Origin: Lysinibacillus sp. 2017
Lineage (GTDB): Bacteria > Bacillota > Bacilli > Bacillales_A > Planococcaceae
Direction of reading: 5' to 3'
NCBI RefSeq assembly: GCF_003073375.1
Contig: NZ_CP029002.1
Coordinates: 792,001 to 856,000, forward strand
Length of the DNA: 64,000 nucleotides
Position numbers and translations under genes: made by a program. Positions 988 through 46,421 of this stretch are shown piece by piece (position 1 is the first letter of the stretch; the number at the start of each line of letters is the position of its first letter). Under the pieces are notes generated by a model. It saw only the letters and a list, made by a program, of their open reading frames with translations, had not been told where the DNA came from and ran no database searches.

Positions 988-1107
988 TGAAGCGTAATTC
1001 GTGAAAATTGGGGATTGCTACAAAGAGAACCTTTGAGCAGTTCCTTTTCTTTTAGTTAAAAATTCATTATACTAGGAAAAAATGTTATGAATTAGGGAGG
1101 CGAAGAG

Positions 1108-2457
1108 ATGCCTTTTAAACAGTTAGCGACTCGTAATATTACGCCTTTCCAAATATTACTAACCTTTTATTTTTTTGCGATTTTAATTTCTTACTTATTA
1201 CTTCGCATTCCAGGTGTCCACCTTGAAGGTGTAGAAGTATCACATTTAGACAGCTTATTTACGGCAGTAAGTGCGGTAAGTGTGACTGGTTTAACGACTG
1301 TGATTGTTTCAGAAACATACAGTGGCTTTGGACTTGCAATGATTTTATTGATTTTACAATTTGGCGCCATTGGAATTATGTCGATTGGTACGTTTTTGTG
1401 GCTGTTATTCGGAAAGAAAATTGGGATGCGCGAGCGCCAATTAATCATGATTGACCACAACCAATATAATCTTTCAGGCGTTGTTATGTTAATTAAACAA
1501 ATTGCAAGGTTATTGATTTTGATAGAAAGTATTGGTGCACTTATTTTGACAGTGCATTTTAAACGCTATTTTGATACGTGGGAAGAGTCGGCGATTCAGG
1601 GTGTGTTTGCCTCTGTTTCCGCTACAACGAATGGTGGATTTGATATTACGGGCTTAAGTTTACAGCCATTCCATCATGATTATTTTGTGCAGTTTGTGTG
1701 CATGATTTTAATTTTTTTAGGGGCAATTGGGTTTCCAGTGCTCATAGAAGTAAAAACGTATTTAATGAAAAAGGATTCTACATTTCGTTTTAGTTTGTTT
1801 ACGAAAATCACGACTGTTACGTATGCAGGACTTTTCGCTATCGGAACGTTAATCATTTTACTTTTGGAATCATTTCACTCATTTAAAGGAATGCGATGGC
1901 ATGAAGCGGTTTTTTCTGCGATGTTTCATTCGGCATCGACAAGATCTGCAGGATTGACGACGTATGATGTGACTACTTTTAGTGAAGCTACAGACTTATT
2001 TATGAGTGGACTTATGTTTATCGGAGCTTCTCCAAGTTCAGTAGGTGGGGGAATTCGTACGACGACCTTTGCCATTGTCACGCTATTTTTAATCGCCTTT
2101 TCACGTGGACAGTCTGACATTCAAATTTTTAATCGGGAAATTCATGTCATTGATGTATATCGTTCGTTTGCCGTGCTAATTTTTGCAGTATTTATGGTAC
2201 TCGGTGCCACGATGGCCTTACTAATTACAGAGCCGCACGCAACGATGATTCAAATTATTTTTGAAATCACCTCAGCGTTCGGAACGTGTGGGATGTCACT
2301 TGGAATAACGGAAAACTTATCGACGATAGGGAAATTTATTATTATGGGATTGATGTTTATTGGACGAGTTGGATTAATTTCCTTCCTTTATTCGATTACA
2401 GGTAGACCGACCAAGAAAAAATATCATTATCCGAAAGAACGAGTTATTATTGGATAA
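1108..2457 (+). CDS. ktrB: Ktr potassium uptake system membrane subunit (KtrB/KtrD type)
   Basis: A 449-residue Trk/Ktr/HKT-family channel subunit for K+ uptake, working in the membrane with a cytosolic RCK ring. The four pore-loop filter segments are present: VTGLT near 59-63, TTNGGFD at 173-179, TRSAGLTT at 278-285 and GTCGMS at 392-397. The conserved SVGGGIRTTT after the third repeat is also present. Its length matches Bacillus KtrB/KtrD (about 445-449). No RCK gene is adjacent. The only RCK partner in the window is ktrC at 34,249, so this may be the KtrD of a KtrCD-like pair. The start follows TTAGGGAGGCG. Confidence 0.93.
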   Translation: MPFKQLATRNITPFQILLTFYFFAILISYLLLRIPGVHLEGVEVSHLDSLFTAVSAVSVTGLTTVIVSETYSGFGLAMILLILQFGAIGIMSIGTFLWLLFGKKIGMRERQLIMIDHNQYNLSGVVMLIKQIARLLILIESIGALILTVHFKRYFDTWEESAIQGVFASVSATTNGGFDITGLSLQPFHHDYFVQFVCMILIFLGAIGFPVLIEVKTYLMKKDSTFRFSLFTKITTVTYAGLFAIGTLIILLLESFHSFKGMRWHEAVFSAMFHSASTRSAGLTTYDVTTFSEATDLFMSGLMFIGASPSSVGGGIRTTTFAIVTLFLIAFSRGQSDIQIFNREIHVIDVYRSFAVLIFAVFMVLGATMALLITEPHATMIQIIFEITSAFGTCGMSLGITENLSTIGKFIIMGLMFIGRVGLISFLYSITGRPTKKKYHYPKERVIIG

Positions 2458-2570: not shown

Positions 2571-2681
2571 GCTAAAGCGCCAACCCCTCGAGCTTTTCGG
2601 CCCCTCTGTTGATGCGTGATGGAACGTTTACTTTCTTGTCGGGTCCTCCAAAGCTGTTCGGGGCTAAACGGACGCTTTAGC
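2571..2681. repeat. Dispersed Bacillaceae-type intergenic repeat with terminal inverted repeats
   Basis: A 111-bp block bounded by the inverted repeat GCTAAAGCG (2571-2579) and CGCTTTAGC (2673-2681). It contains the internal motifs CCCCTCGAGC and TTCGGGGCT. The block is GC-richer than its surroundings. From memory it resembles a repeat family seen in many Bacillus intergenic regions (CAGCGCCTAGCCCCTCGAG type). The function of that family is not known to me. It sits between two convergent genes. Confidence 0.6.
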
Positions 2682-2691
2682 ACTTTTGTTC

Positions 2692-14945: not shown

Positions 14946-14974
14946 TAGGGGAGCTGTCCGATAGGAGTCGGTTT

Positions 14975-16228
14975 TCTAATATAGAGGTTATTCAGGTGTA
15001 GCTTTTTGGCAGGTTCTTCGCACGCAAGCCGCACAGCCATGTTGCACATGTCTGTACGACTCGCCTTTGTGCTTCGTGAAAGACCTGCCAATACTTGGTG
15101 TATCCATTTTCCTTTTGCTTGTATTCACGTGCTGGCGCTTACAGTGGTAGGCGCCAGTCTTTTTATTAGGCGAATCTTTTTATACAGTAGGGTTTATCAT
15201 AGTGAATTCATCCTTTGTTATAGGGGTGATTCGGGTGTTTCGTTTGGACGGGTGCAGCACACATTCACAAAGCCTCTTTCGGTCTTCTAATGAAAAGGTT
15301 ATTCAGGCATAGTCATTTGGCAGGTTCTTCGCACGCAAGCCGCACAGTCATGTTGCACATGTCTGTACGACTCGCCTTTGTGCTTCGTGAAAGACCTGCC
15401 AATATAAGGTGTATCCATTTTCCTTTTACTTATATTCACGTTCTGGCGCTTACAGTGGTAGGCGCCAGTCGGTTTATTAGGCGAATCTTTTTATAAAATC
15501 AGGGAAATCACAGTGAATTCATCCTTTATTAAAGTGGTTATTCAAGCATAGTCATTTGGCAGGTTCTTCGCACGCAAGCCGCACAGCCATGTTGCACATG
15601 TCTGTACGACTCGCCTTTGTGCTTCGTGAAAGACCTGCCAATATTTAGTGTATCCATTTTCCCTTTACTTGTATTCACGTGCTGGCGCTTACAGTGGTAG
15701 GCGCCAGTCTTCTAAATTTATCGAATCTTCCTTCTAAAGTAGCGAAGGATACAGTTCAAGTGAATCTGCCTTTTATTAAAGTGGTTACTCGGGCATAATC
15801 ACTTGGCGGGTTCTTCGCACGCAAGCCGCACAGCCATGTTGCACATGTCTGTACGACTCGTCTTTGTGCTTCGTGAAAGACCCGCCAATATTTAGTGTAT
15901 CCATTTCCCCTTTACTTGTATTCACGTGCTGGCGCTTACAGTGGTAGGCGCCAGTCTTCTAAATTTATCGAATCTTCCTTATAAAGTTGAGAAAGATACA
16001 GTTCAAGTGGATCTGCCTTTTTTAAAGTGGTGATTCGGGTGTTTAGTTTGGGCGGGCGCAGCACACATTAACAAAGCCTCTTTGCAAGAGTCTTTCGCGA
16101 ATGTTCTTTGTGCTGTGTGTAAGGCCCGCCCATTCAAGGTGTATCTATTTTCCCTTTACTCGTATTCACGTACTGGCGCTTACAGTGGTAGGCGCCAGTC
16201 TTTTTATTAGGCGAATCTTTTTATAAAG
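14975..16228 (-). repeat. Left hairpin-repeat array (array A, five units, inverted relative to array B)
   Basis: Five imperfect tandem units of about 240-250 bp; the first interval is 311 bp because of a truncated extra piece at 15242-15290. Each unit has a large hairpin and a small stem-loop. Large hairpins: 15006-15091, 15317-15402, 15556-15641, 15803-15888, 16049-16132. Small CTGGCGC/GCGCCAG stem-loops: 15132-15157, 15443-15468, 15682-15707, 15929-15954, 16173-16198. The first four large hairpins share arms TTGGCAGG/CCTGCCAA (G/C-changed in the fourth) and apical CATGT-TGC-ACATG. The fifth has a different core (CTCTT-TGC-AAGAG) with TGGGCGGGC/GCCCGCCCA arms. The reverse complement aligns with array B, so strand is given as minus. 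No plausible coding gene. Confidence 0.9.
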
Positions 16229-16313
16229 TAGGTGAAATCACAATGTATTTATTTAACATCTAAATACTGTGAACTCATTTATCTAGAGTTTTAGTAGAAA
16301 AGGCAATCCTGCC

Positions 16314-16319
16314 ATTATA
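16314..16319 (-). promoter_or_regulatory. Possible minus-strand -10 element facing array A
   Basis: On the minus strand this reads TATAAT exactly. The -35 is weak (TAGTTG at 17 bp, or TTGTCA at 14 bp). It lies in the unique spacer between the two arrays. Confidence 0.35.
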
Positions 16320-16332
16320 GAAAATGAAGGCA

Positions 16333-16362
16333 TTGACAACTATTGAACCCTATCCGTATATT
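16333..16362 (+). promoter_or_regulatory. SigmaA-type promoter reading into array B
   Basis: TTGACA (16333-16338), an 18-bp spacer and TATATT (16357-16362) lie in the unique centre between the arrays. No ORF follows; the first thing downstream is array B. Confidence 0.55.
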
Positions 16363-16399
16363 CATCCCTTTATAAAAAGAGAATCTGTTTCAGTCCCTT

Positions 16400-18425
16400 T
16401 CACACTTAATTCAACGGACTCGCTTTAAAAGTAAACGGCGCCTTTGCTCGCCAACAGCGCCGCCCCTGAATACATGCAAAAGTAGAATGGATTATCATTT
16501 GATTTGGCAGGCCTAGCATACCGCAACAGTATCAGTAGTAGGGACACGTACCACGTGACCCTGCTGCTGATATGCGGTCGCCTGCCAAAATATGAAACAC
16601 CTTAATAGAATATTTATTAGAATTTGACTAGCTCTGACAATCCCTTCAACCCACCAAATTCAACGGACTCGCTTTAAAAGTAAACGGCGCCTTTGCTCGT
16701 CAACAGCGCCGCCCCTGAATACATGTAAAAGTAGAATGGACTATCCTTTGATTTGGCAGGCCTAGCATACCGCAACAGTATCAGTAGTAGGGACACGTAC
16801 CACGTGACCCTGCTGCTGATATGCGGTCGCCTGCCAAAACCCAATACATTTTCATAACATCTCTATTAGAAGATGACTAGCTATAACAATCCCTTCAACC
16901 CACAAAATTCAACGGACTCACTTTAAAAGTAAACGGCGCCTTTGCTCGCCAACAGCGCCGCCCGTGAATACATGCAAAAGTAGAATGGACTAGCCTTTGA
17001 TTTGGCAGGCCTAGCCTAAGGCGCAAAGAAGAGTCGTACAGATATGTGCAACATATCTTTGCGACTCTGGGCGCCCAGCCTGCCAATACACGATACACTT
17101 TCATTACATCTCTATTAGAAGATGACTAGCTCTGACAATACCTTCAACCCACCAAATTCAACGGACTCGCTTTATAGAAAAACGGCGCCTTTGCTCGTCA
17201 ACAGCGCCGCCCCTGAATACATGCAAAAGTAGAATGGACTAGCCTTTGATTTGGCAGGCCTAGCCCAAGGCGCAAAGAAGAGTCGTACAGATATGTGCAA
17301 CATATCTTTGCGACTCTGGGCGCCCAGCCTGCCAAAACACGATACACTTTCATAACATCTCTATTAGAAGATGACTAGCTCTGACAATCCCTTCAACCCA
17401 ATAAATTCAACGGACTCGCTTTAAAAGTAAACGGCGCCTTTGCTCGCCAACAGCGCCGCCCCTGAATACATGCAAAAGTAGAATGGACTAGCCTTTGATT
17501 TGGCAGGCCTAGCCCAAGGCGCAAAGAAGAGTCGTACAGATATGTGCAACATATCTTTGCGACTCTGGGCGCCCAGCCTGCCAAAACTCAATACACTTTC
17601 ATAACATCTCTATTAGAAGATGACTAGCTCTGACAATACCTTCAACCCACCAAATTCAACGGACTCGCTTTATAGAAAAACGGCGCCTTTGCTCGCCAAC
17701 AGCGCCGCACCCGAATACATGCAAAGGCATAATGGATTACACTTTGATTTGGCTGGCCTAGCCCAAGGCGCAAAGAAGAGTCGTACAGATATGTGCAACA
17801 TATCTTTGCGACTCTGGGCGCCCAGCCTGCCAAAACTCAATACACTTTGATTACATCTCTATTAGAAAATGACTAGCTCTGACAATCCCTTCAACCCACA
17901 AAGTTTAACGGATTCACTTCAGAGAAAAACGGCGCCTTTGCTCGTCAACAGCGCCGCCCCCCGAATTCAAGCAAAAGTAGAATGGATTACACTTTGATTT
18001 GGCAGGCCTAGCCCAAGGCGCAAAGAAGAGTCGTACAGATATGTGCAACATATCTGTACGACTCTGGGCGCCCAGCCTGCCAAAATACGATACACTTTCA
18101 TAACATCTTCATTAGAAAATAACTAGCTTTGACAATCCCTTTTGATCTACCAAATTCAACGGACTCACTTTAAAGAAAATCGGCGCCTTTGCTCGTCAAC
18201 AGCGCCGCCCCCGAATTCAAGCAAAAGTAGAATGTATTACACTTTGATTTGGCAGGCCTAGCCCAAGGCGCAAAGAAGCGTCGTACAGATATGTGCAACA
18301 TATCTTTGCGACTCTGGGCGCCCAGCCTGCCAAAAAACGATACACTTTAATAACATCTCTATTAGAAAATGATTAAGCTCTGACAATCCCCTTGCTCTAC
18401 TAAATTCAAAGGACTCGCTTCAATA
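16400..18425 (+). repeat. Right hairpin-repeat array (array B, eight units of 249-250 bp plus a partial ninth)
   Basis: Eight direct tandem units with near-constant period. Large hairpins: 16503-16589, 16752-16838, 17002-17086, 17250-17336, 17499-17585, 17748-17834, 17998-18084, 18248-18334. Each unit also has a small CGGCGC/GCGCCG stem-loop about 40-65 bp before the large hairpin (first one 16436-16462). Units 1-2 carry a core ending in CACGT-ACC-ACGTG. Units 3-8 carry a core ending in ATATGT-GCA-ACATAT. The frame around both cores is the same, including TTTGGCAGGC/GCCTGCCAAA arms. In unit 7 the upper stem is perfect over 16 bp. A ninth unit start without hairpins ends near 18425. No plausible coding gene. 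Confidence 0.92.
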
Positions 18426-23490: not shown

Positions 23491-23513
23491 GGTTAAATGC
23501 ATGACACTTTGAA

Positions 23514-23599
23514 TTGGCGGGCCTTGCATGCGGGCATTAAAGACAGTAGTATGGGCACGTACCACGTGGCCATAATGCGGTCATGCCGTAGCCTGCCAA
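23514..23599 (+). repeat. Solitary copy of the array-type large hairpin
   Basis: An 86-nt hairpin with arms TTGGCGGGC/GCCTGCCAA and apical ATGG-G-CACGT-ACC-ACGTG-G-CCAT. It shares the CACGT-ACC-ACGTG tip with units 1-2 of array B. Its left flank ACACTTTGAATTGGC parallels the array B flank ACACTTTGATTTGGC. It lies more than 5 kb from the arrays, so this is a dispersed element. Confidence 0.85.
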
Positions 23600-23719
23600 T
23601 AGCTAGACAAACTAATAAAGAAAAAATCATCCCCAACTTATAGTGATGAGCCATAAAATGGGATTGAAACTTTATATGGTTGAATTCGTATAATGTTAGA
23701 AAGGGAGGTGGCTTTTATT

Positions 23720-44561: not shown

Positions 44562-46421
44562 GTGTGCCGGGCATGTCTGTCAACTAGGTGATGAAAGTTC
44601 ACTGTGGGCGTCAGGATATGCGAACCACTAGCTGAAAACAAGGGTGTCCGTGGTGACGCGGAATCTGAAGGAAGTTCGAGGCAAAATCTTGGTCTGAGGA
44701 ACACGAATCGCATGAGGTTGTCTCATCTGGATAAGGTTGCAAAACAAACTGAAGTCCAAAATATCCTCGGAAAGATGAGGCGATAAATGCGGCAGATGGA
44801 TGAGAGGAAAGTGGGCAGACTTACCCCGGGAGATCTGATGAATAACCCATAGAGGGAACCTGTACAGCGATGTACAACTGAATCATTAGAAGTCAGCAGA
44901 AGCCATAGTACCAGTAATGGGAAGGGCTGAACGAAAGGAGTGAACGTGTATAAGGGTATTACATGCGAATGATGACACAGAACTGAAAAGTCTATCCTAC
45001 AGTAAGGTACGGAATACCCCAGGAGTAGGAATAGCGTGGAATTCTGCATGTGCATTCCTTACCCACACGCGAACATATGGATGGATTAATCAACGTTATA
45101 GTAAACAGAGATAATTTGAATGATGCTTTTGAGAAAGTGCGTAAAAACAAAGGTGCAGCCGGTGTCGATGCGAAAGATATAGAGGCAACCCGCCAATACT
45201 TAAAAGAAAATAAAGTCCAAATTATCGAAGCAATTCGAGCAGGAAAATACAAACCTCAACCAGTTAGAAGGGTGGAAATCCCAAAACCTGATGGAGGAAA
45301 ACGACTTCTAGGAATCCCGACGGTTACAGACCGTGTCATTCAACAAGCAGTCGTGCAAGTATTAACCCCAATACTAGACCCAAAGTTTAGTAATTTTAGT
45401 TATGGATTTCGTCCGAACAAAAGCGCTCATCAAGCAATCGAACAAGCAAGAAACTATATTGAAGAAGGCTATACGTATGTCGTAGACATAGACCTAGAGA
45501 AATTCTTTGATAAAGTTCAACATGATAAGCTGATGTCACTTATGGCGAAATATATTTTATGTAAACCAACCTTGAAATTAATAAGAAGCTTCTTAAATGC
45601 AGGAACCATGATAGATGGAACGTTTATTTACGCAAAAGAAGGAACACCACAGGGTGGACCATTAAGTCCACTATTGAGTAATGTGATTCTTCATGAACTG
45701 GATAAAGAGCTAGAGAAACGCCAACATAAATTCGTGCGCTACGCAGATGACTGCAACATCTACGTCAAAAGCGTAAAAGCGGGAGAACGAGTTAAGGAAG
45801 GCGTCACATCATTTATCGAAAAGAAACTTAAATTAAAAGTAAATGAAGAGAAATCAGCAGTGGGAAAGCCGAGAGCACGTATATTTTTGGGTGTGAGCTT
45901 CTATAAATACAGAGGTGAAATCAAGGTATACGTGCCAAAGAAATCAAAGAAGCGTTTCGAAGAAAAGCTGAAGGACATTACGAACCGTAATTACTCAATT
46001 GATATGGAATCGCGCATTCAGAAAATTAACTACTTAATTCAAGGATGGGGAAACTATTTCAAAGTTGCCGACATACAGTCTTACGCTAACAAAATAGATA
46101 GCCATATTCGAAGAAGATTAAGGGCATGTCGATGGAAAGAATGGAAAAGAACCATATCAAAATATAGAAACCTCAAAAGATTAGGAATCAGCCATAACGA
46201 TGCCTATAAAATGGCCAATACCCGCAAAGGGTACTGGCGCTCCTCGAACAATCCAATCGTCAATCGAGCATTAGACAATAAATATTGGTTAAAACTCAAG
46301 TTGAAGAACCTCGCTACAATCATAAATCCAACATAAAACTTTTGAACCGCCGTATACGGAACCGTACGTACGGTGGTGTGAGAGGTCGACTAGCCAATTA
46401 ATGGCTAGTCTCCTACTCGAT
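44562..46421 (+). mobile_element. Group II intron, bacterial class C, complete
   Basis: About 1,860 bp from 5' GTGTG (44562) to the 3' end near CTCGAT (46421). Domain V is clear at about 46345-46377 (ACCGCCGTA/TACGGTGGT with upper TACGG/CCGTA). Domain VI follows, with GACTAGCC/GGCTAGTC and the branch-side CTCCTACTCGAT. An encoded reverse transcriptase sits in domain IV. Insertion directly after a terminator stem, in the T run, is the known habit of class C introns. Both boundaries are inferred by sequence pattern and could be off by a few bases. Confidence 0.88.
45077..46336 (+). CDS. ltrA: Group II intron reverse transcriptase/maturase (class C)
   Basis: A 419-residue intron-encoded protein. 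RT blocks include KNKGAAGVD, PKPDGGKRLLGIPTV, SYGFRPNKSAHQAI, DIDLEKFFD and GTPQGGPLSPLLSN, plus the catalytic RYADD. A maturase (X) domain with INYLIQGWGNYFKVAD follows. There is no C-terminal HNH endonuclease domain, as is normal for class C. It appears intact, so splicing and retromobility are plausible. The frame is open from GTG 45050; ATG 45077 is chosen because RT block 0 begins soon after, but neither start has a strong ribosome site. ltrA is a generic symbol. Confidence 0.9.
   Translation: MDGLINVIVNRDNLNDAFEKVRKNKGAAGVDAKDIEATRQYLKENKVQIIEAIRAGKYKPQPVRRVEIPKPDGGKRLLGIPTVTDRVIQQAVVQVLTPILDPKFSNFSYGFRPNKSAHQAIEQARNYIEEGYTYVVDIDLEKFFDKVQHDKLMSLMAKYILCKPTLKLIRSFLNAGTMIDGTFIYAKEGTPQGGPLSPLLSNVILHELDKELEKRQHKFVRYADDCNIYVKSVKAGERVKEGVTSFIEKKLKLKVNEEKSAVGKPRARIFLGVSFYKYRGEIKVYVPKKSKKRFEEKLKDITNRNYSIDMESRIQKINYLIQGWGNYFKVADIQSYANKIDSHIRRRLRACRWKEWKRTISKYRNLKRLGISHNDAYKMANTRKGYWRSSNNPIVNRALDNKYWLKLKLKNLATIINPT

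Follow-up and report, generated by a model that had tools for sequence, protein, structure and literature searches.

Head-to-head arrays of a two-hairpin repeat in Lysinibacillus: a candidate structured RNA element with relatives in a few genera of one family

In Lysinibacillus sp. 2017, the gap between the genes for polyphosphate kinase (ppk) and 2,4-dienoyl-CoA reductase is filled by two tandem arrays of a hairpin-bearing repeat, five left units on the minus strand and eight right units on the plus strand, arranged head to head. We give about an even chance to the reading that these arrays are a structured RNA element that spread as a non-autonomous repeat and was amplified in place, a candidate interpretation built on sequence comparisons. 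A preliminary description of the locus had offered three options: a tandem structured RNA, a REP/BIME-like DNA scaffold, or hairpins moved by a transposase acting in trans. The first fits best because compensated changes occur in four genera, G-U pairs exceed A-C mismatches on one strand, and the element is conserved in place in five species, whereas a strict REP/BIME identity fails where it was tested.

The window (the whole stretch analyzed, 64,000 nucleotides, positions 792,001 to 856,000 of contig NZ_CP029002.1) carries the arrays between neighbors that pass the NCBIfam cut-offs for polyphosphate kinase and 2,4-dienoyl-CoA reductase. On the right side, Tandem Repeats Finder reported a 249-bp array of 8.1 copies with 90% matches (16408-18420), and a direct-repeat search placed eight copies at a spacing of 249-250 bp, in agreement with the period first given for this side. 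On the left side, a 247-bp array of 3.8 copies (15297-16231) was reported, and five direct copies were spaced by 311, 239, 247, and 244 bp, with units of ~240-250 bp. The 311-bp step contains an extra fragment resembling part of the innermost left unit (direct-repeat family D4, 15212-15279); it coincides with a partial match to the L profile on the minus strand, between left units 1 and 2 (15206..15279; genome 807198-807278). Within the locus, a covariance model of the hairpin recovered five large hairpins on the minus strand (15005-16133) and eight on the plus strand (16503-18334). The repeat searches, the hairpin model, and the NCBIfam matches together confirmed the inverted arrays of five and eight units originally described between ppk and the reductase gene. 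The claim of a gene-free locus has to be qualified in that open reading frames overlap the arrays, none of them longer than 94 amino acids.

Outward from the center, the order within a unit is a GC-rich small hairpin (SL1), a linker of ~40 nt (usually ~35-45), a hairpin of ~85 nt (SL2), and a spacer. Every unit was matched by both its profile (the L profile in the case of the outermost left unit) and the covariance model. The left units, all on the minus strand and numbered from the outermost, are unit 1 at 14960..15200 (SL2 at 15005-15092), unit 2 at 15271..15512 (15316-15403), unit 3 at 15508..15752 (15555-15642), unit 4 at 15753..15999 (15802-15889), and the innermost unit 5 at 16000..16242, whose SL2 (16048-16133) is of another sequence type. 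A center to which no strand is assigned (16243..16407) separates them from the right units, all on the plus strand and numbered outward. These are unit 1 at 16408..16655 (SL2 at 16503-16589) and unit 2 at 16657..16904 (16752-16838), both with an alternative inner hairpin in SL2, followed by unit 3 at 16906..17153 (17001-17087), unit 4 at 17155..17401 (17250-17336), unit 5 at 17404..17651 (17499-17585), unit 6 at 17653..17899 (17748-17834), unit 7 at 17903..18146 (17998-18084), and the outermost unit 8 at 18153..18400 (18248-18334). The notion of a hairpin in every unit thus stands for the SL1 and SL2 layout but has to be amended for right units 1 and 2, which retain the outer stem of SL2 around a different inner hairpin. 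Arms of the type TTGGCAGG/CCTGCCAA had been ascribed to all units, and this is contradicted by the innermost left unit (TGGGCGGG/CCCGCCCA), by one left unit with TTGGCGGG/CCCGCCAA, and by right unit 6, with a mismatched TTGGCTGG. An assembly artifact is an unlikely account of the arrays, because many loci, and other genera too, show this layout; the copy numbers given here are those of the assembly.

Other features of the window were recorded alongside. A weak solo hairpin (44.5 bits; 23513-23600, plus strand) lies ~5 kb to the right of the array. A group II intron with Rfam matches occupies 44647-46421 on the plus strand and includes a reverse transcriptase/maturase open reading frame of 428 amino acids (45050-46336) that scores above the NCBIfam cut-off. 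Sites of the type TATTAGAA are enriched in the window (18 versus 5.0 expected), with 8 of the 18 inside the array region. Their interpretation as a shared protein site was rejected; ATATTAGAACA clusters between ppk and the reductase gene in relatives appear to be a repeat of a different kind. Inspection by eye of that gap in genomes G004, G006, G009, and G001 revealed several direct ATATTAGAACA-like motifs ~20 bp apart.

Far from being a single odd locus, the arrays at ppk are one of at least 28 loci counted in this genome (a single contig of 3.74 Mb), a count in which a locus split by an insertion sequence (IS) is taken once and the weak solo hairpin is excluded. One right unit used as a BLAST query returned at least 148 matches, and two loci beyond the BLAST set emerged when the SL2 model, left units, and an old-type unit served as queries. 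Profile mapping of the fetched segments resolved 28 groups, 24 of them with both unit types, and all 24 point outward; one of these, at 460 kb, has its R unit present as a fragment only. With the covariance model, 158 hairpins were found in the 20 segments searched (163 matches less five opposite-strand shadows). The center, previously regarded as unique, is so only within the 64-kb window: of 23 centers extracted from the genome, 15 are homologous to that of the window (itself and 14 others) and 8 are not. IS genes were seen at some arrays, where two integrase/HTH transposase open reading frames split the locus at 291-293 kb (291.5-293.0 kb) and an IstB frame lies at 615 kb (615.1 kb); by eye, a frame beside or inside the array at 775.6 kb seems to be this IstB again.

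Covariance models were also run on relatives, as the preliminary description had suggested. With model R1 (SL2 only), the element was detected in at least 15 of the 16 genomes of the genus and, in a family survey, in at least 16 of 121 genomes (4 of 19 genera). Model R2 (SL1, linker, and SL2) detected it in at least 27 of 261 genomes in an order survey (again 4 of 19 genera) and in at least 1 of 398 in a class survey, namely that of the window; carrier counts from surveys of more than 40 genomes are lower bounds given the stricter filters applied and the small number of candidates taken per genome. In these surveys, carriers were restricted to a few genera within a single family of Bacilli. 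A pattern scan added Lysinibacillus composti, L. antri, and L. endophyticus to the carriers; the last has tandem arrays with a 243-250 bp period and an identical unit layout, running in one direction only. In genome G003, the copies are mostly solo and, among the matches listed, scattered round the chromosome; the element there is ~330 bp long, geneless, and bounded by inverted ends. The SL1-SL2 core is common to shells with different ends. Near solo units, Bacillaceae-1 RNA (RF01690) was found above its gathering score at locus L053 of G010 (2617-2683, minus strand) and at locus L047 of G003 (1061-1127, minus strand).

The alignment shows that the predicted two-hairpin fold is maintained via compensated changes across genera. 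In 24 diverse sequences from four genera, two-sided changes that compensate each other are seen at 22 of the 36 pairs, and the SL1 stem is maintained while its sequence changes in several ways. The named structure has 95.9% of its cells paired and a covariation score of 0.452; neither value was reached in 500 shuffles, and registers slid along the alignment scored at most 0.090. The sequences were collected with a related model and hence lean towards the structure, and the number of further pair types is unremarkable, being reached by 24 of the 500 shuffles.

It is important to consider which strand folds. In a double-stranded or neutral palindrome, G-U and A-C mismatches are expected to be equal. 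On the outward strand of this genome, the best 150 of 163 matches (97 distinct hairpins) gave 190 G-U versus 65 A-C cells, and 152 versus 3 in the central helix; the totals include 46 A-C cells that sit in two pair columns, apparently misaligned for one subclass. Across genera, the outward strand has 41 G-U versus 10 A-C cells, and one pair is U-G in 18 of the 24 sequences, C-G in 4, and U-A in 2. This excess argues that one single strand folds, with the caveat that the structure was predicted with G-U pairs allowed. The outward strand is the better-pairing one in the aligned helices. Replication-strand bias is no simple explanation, because, at any one locus, the left array occupies one strand and the right array the other. 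Two earlier mismatch counts made with a crude aligner had given more A-C than G-U for R units (126 versus 56 among distinct R units); these were judged to reflect register errors and were replaced by the alignment-based counts. Whole-unit folding energy points against folding of the outward strand: for 90 of the 94 R units and 37 of the 60 L units, the inward strand reaches the lower value. This measure was dropped as a strand test, the inward advantage being attributed to composition from the shuffles of one unit (z-scores of -3.2 inward and -4.2 outward). The G-U bias would fit RNA and single-stranded DNA alike, and the two cannot be told apart by it.

Conservation in place is clearest in one gene gap that holds the element in five species (G001, G006, G008, G009, and G012), with flanking synteny present. 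The gap has three R-side hairpins in G001, two in G006, and one in each of the others, and an inverted left partner that was matched by the model in G006, G008, and G012, by a weak profile match in G001, and by alignment only in G009. Across the eight R units of the five species, which were located by SL2, invariant columns amount to 21 of 26 in SL1, 22 of 41 in the linker, 75 of 86 in SL2 (56 of 60 in its inner part), and 8 of 28 in the 3' spacer; with one unit per species, the counts are 23, 22, 78, 57, and 12, respectively. Gene conversion from other copies is unlikely, because G008, G009, and G012 have one or two element matches per genome, among the matches listed. In the left (minus-strand) unit of the same gap, the inner SL2 of G001 and G009 is wholly different from that of G006, G008, and G012, as if one palindrome had replaced another.

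Because the hairpins persist at their site even in species with no more than one or two copies, the folded strand may well be RNA. The element would have spread as a non-autonomous repeat, and in this species single or paired units may have grown in place into head-to-head arrays through unequal recombination and gene conversion. Such arrays could supply a putative protein or RNA partner with more hairpin RNA or more binding sites. Transcription is the weakest step of the RNA reading. A conserved promoter was not found (4 promoter-like sites versus 6.4 expected), and solo copies have no clear strand preference relative to their neighbor genes (both co-directional in 18 cases, both opposite in 13, and mixed in 13). 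A promoter in the center was considered and rejected, the sole good match having a different spacing at other loci.

Flank and gap comparisons with relatives suggest that some loci grew in place and others were gained. Both flanks were present in the examined segments of this genome for 6 of 56 units of G003 and G010. Three of the six are single units that coincide exactly with an array gap of this genome and share the strand of its R array, and three fall in gaps that are empty here, a 3:3 ratio that says little because the segments were mostly picked around arrays. No hairpin was present in the ppk-reductase gap of the 14 relatives examined, nor, in 15 relatives, in the 1.5 kb that follow prfB, where this genome has an array; G011 has one unit immediately before prfB.

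Those hairpin-free ppk-reductase gaps would also be expected of a purely selfish hairpin, that is, a mobile but non-autonomous repeat that a trans-acting transposase recognizes by its single-stranded DNA hairpins, the arrays being by-products of transposition and recombination with no host function. We regard this explanation as tentative and rather doubtful. Copies are intergenic in 57 of 58 groups, and the G-U bias is compatible with folded single-stranded DNA. Moreover, TATATANGTTNAAC-like ends occur on both sides of 18 of 32 units in G003 (1 of 640 shuffles) and 2 of 22 in G010 (2 of 440 shuffles), and GAGGCTGGGACA-like ends, which differ in sequence from those of G003, on both sides of 7 of 12 copies in G266 (0 of 600 shuffles). 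The G003 element resembles MITEs in its ~330-bp length, inverted ends, and lack of genes, and its ends would fit a selfish element too; since these ends are TATATA, a TA target-site duplication is unreadable. In contrast with MITEs, the arrays of this genome have no such ends around them as judged by eye, and the interior is a conserved fold common to different shells. The idea of hairpins mobilized in trans gains from the matching ends of the G003 copies, but the mobilizing enzyme was not found. The Y1 transposase domain PF01797 has no match in this genome and at least one in 9 of the 16 genomes of the genus. Sites with TATATANGTTNAAC-type ends number 24 in G003 (0 in the control), and at the six away from known units, no transposase was recognized by eye and a hairpin was present at four. 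An autonomous transposon was rejected in view of these six sites and of convergent G003 units ~3 kb apart, which flank ordinary genes. The retention of SL2 at its site where a species has no more than one or two copies and the identical SL1-SL2 core in shells with different ends also stand against a selfish hairpin.

A DNA scaffold, in which arrays of REP/BIME-like palindromes would offer gyrase or a nucleoid protein double-stranded or cruciform binding sites and so give the chromosome's origin half its shape, seems unlikely. It draws on the position of the loci: the contig starts at dnaA, and the counted loci are all confined to the origin half (273-949 kb and 2.93-3.26 Mb), leaving an empty arc of 1.99 Mb (53% of the chromosome) that none of 200,000 random placements matched (analytic value, 1.8e-4 after merging neighbors to 16 points), although this bias is a post hoc observation in one genome. 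Furthermore, 22 of the 28 mapped groups are no more than 150 bp away from the 3' end of a gene, and REP325 of Escherichia coli encodes naRNA4 and, in the part of the source available, matters for nucleoid condensation (PMC6907758). Against a scaffold, an excess of G-U over A-C on one strand is unexpected for a double-stranded site, and the solo copies of G003 are, among the matches listed, spread round the chromosome.

Bidirectional terminators or 3' insulators between genes are a reading that we consider very improbable. In its favor are the 8 terminator-like sites found versus 3.8 expected (sd 2.0), 7 of them SL1 read inward, and the proximity of 22 of the 28 groups to gene 3' ends. Against it stand a T-run after SL1 that is absent by eye in several other species, a strand bias that favors the outward strand, and a 250-bp unit with a conserved SL2 that termination does not require.

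The label of an undescribed element holds against Rfam 15, in which no gathering-score match fell on the element (array region, six related loci, and whole window) and low-scoring miRNA matches were apparent hairpin noise. It also holds against a literature search that recognized no paper describing the element, a search that covered subscription papers in part and is not proof of its being unpublished. From the portions of the sources available, bcr elements and BIMEs come closest among repeat families. The repeats bcr1-bcr18 of the Bacillus cereus group share with the present element an intergenic position, a high copy number, and confinement to one group within the Bacilli; secondary structure is conserved in bcr10 and bcr18, bcr1-bcr3 resemble MITEs, and transcripts were found to include about half of the copies (PMC3446304). 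Compared by description only, the accessible part of that source has no head-to-head arrays of 250-bp units. As far as the available sections go, BIMEs consist of regularly spaced REPs in alternating orientation, and REPs with RAYT, like the present element, are palindromes that lie between genes, singly and in clusters, and show complementary changes (PMC2817692); such REPs have a GTAG or CGTC tag beside a 20-40-nt palindrome (PMC3733652). The element differs in being made of direct repeats of ~250 bp with one inversion point and an ~85-nt hairpin, in a genome without PF01797. A strict REP/BIME was rejected on the lack of a Y1 transposase and because the 24 two-type loci are two one-directional outward blocks rather than alternating units.

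For the combination of array and RNA, the nearest analog appears to be REP325, a hairpin-repeat array that, in the part of the source seen, yields the structured RNA naRNA4, able to connect DNA with cruciforms (PMC6907758). We offer it as a possible working mode and not as membership; its host is E. coli rather than a Gram-positive bacterium, and the present element is known here from DNA alone. By this analogy, a chromosome organizer of the naRNA kind could exist in a Gram-positive host, in which outward SL1-SL2 RNAs would bind the same hairpins extruded as cruciforms at the ~28 origin-half loci, and the amplified arrays would anchor this half together, a speculation to which we assign a low probability.

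Related species keep the folded shape, often with few copies, which hints at a candidate undescribed structured RNA. That the arrays are confined to the chromosome's origin half is a testable feature of this genome. The structured repeat family, for which a working covariance model is at hand, is represented in related species by a near-single conserved copy, MITE-like solos, and large head-to-head arrays. Whether hairpin repeats between genes represent selfish DNA or genes for RNA can be asked directly with this copy series, as can the way in which bacterial palindromic arrays grow.
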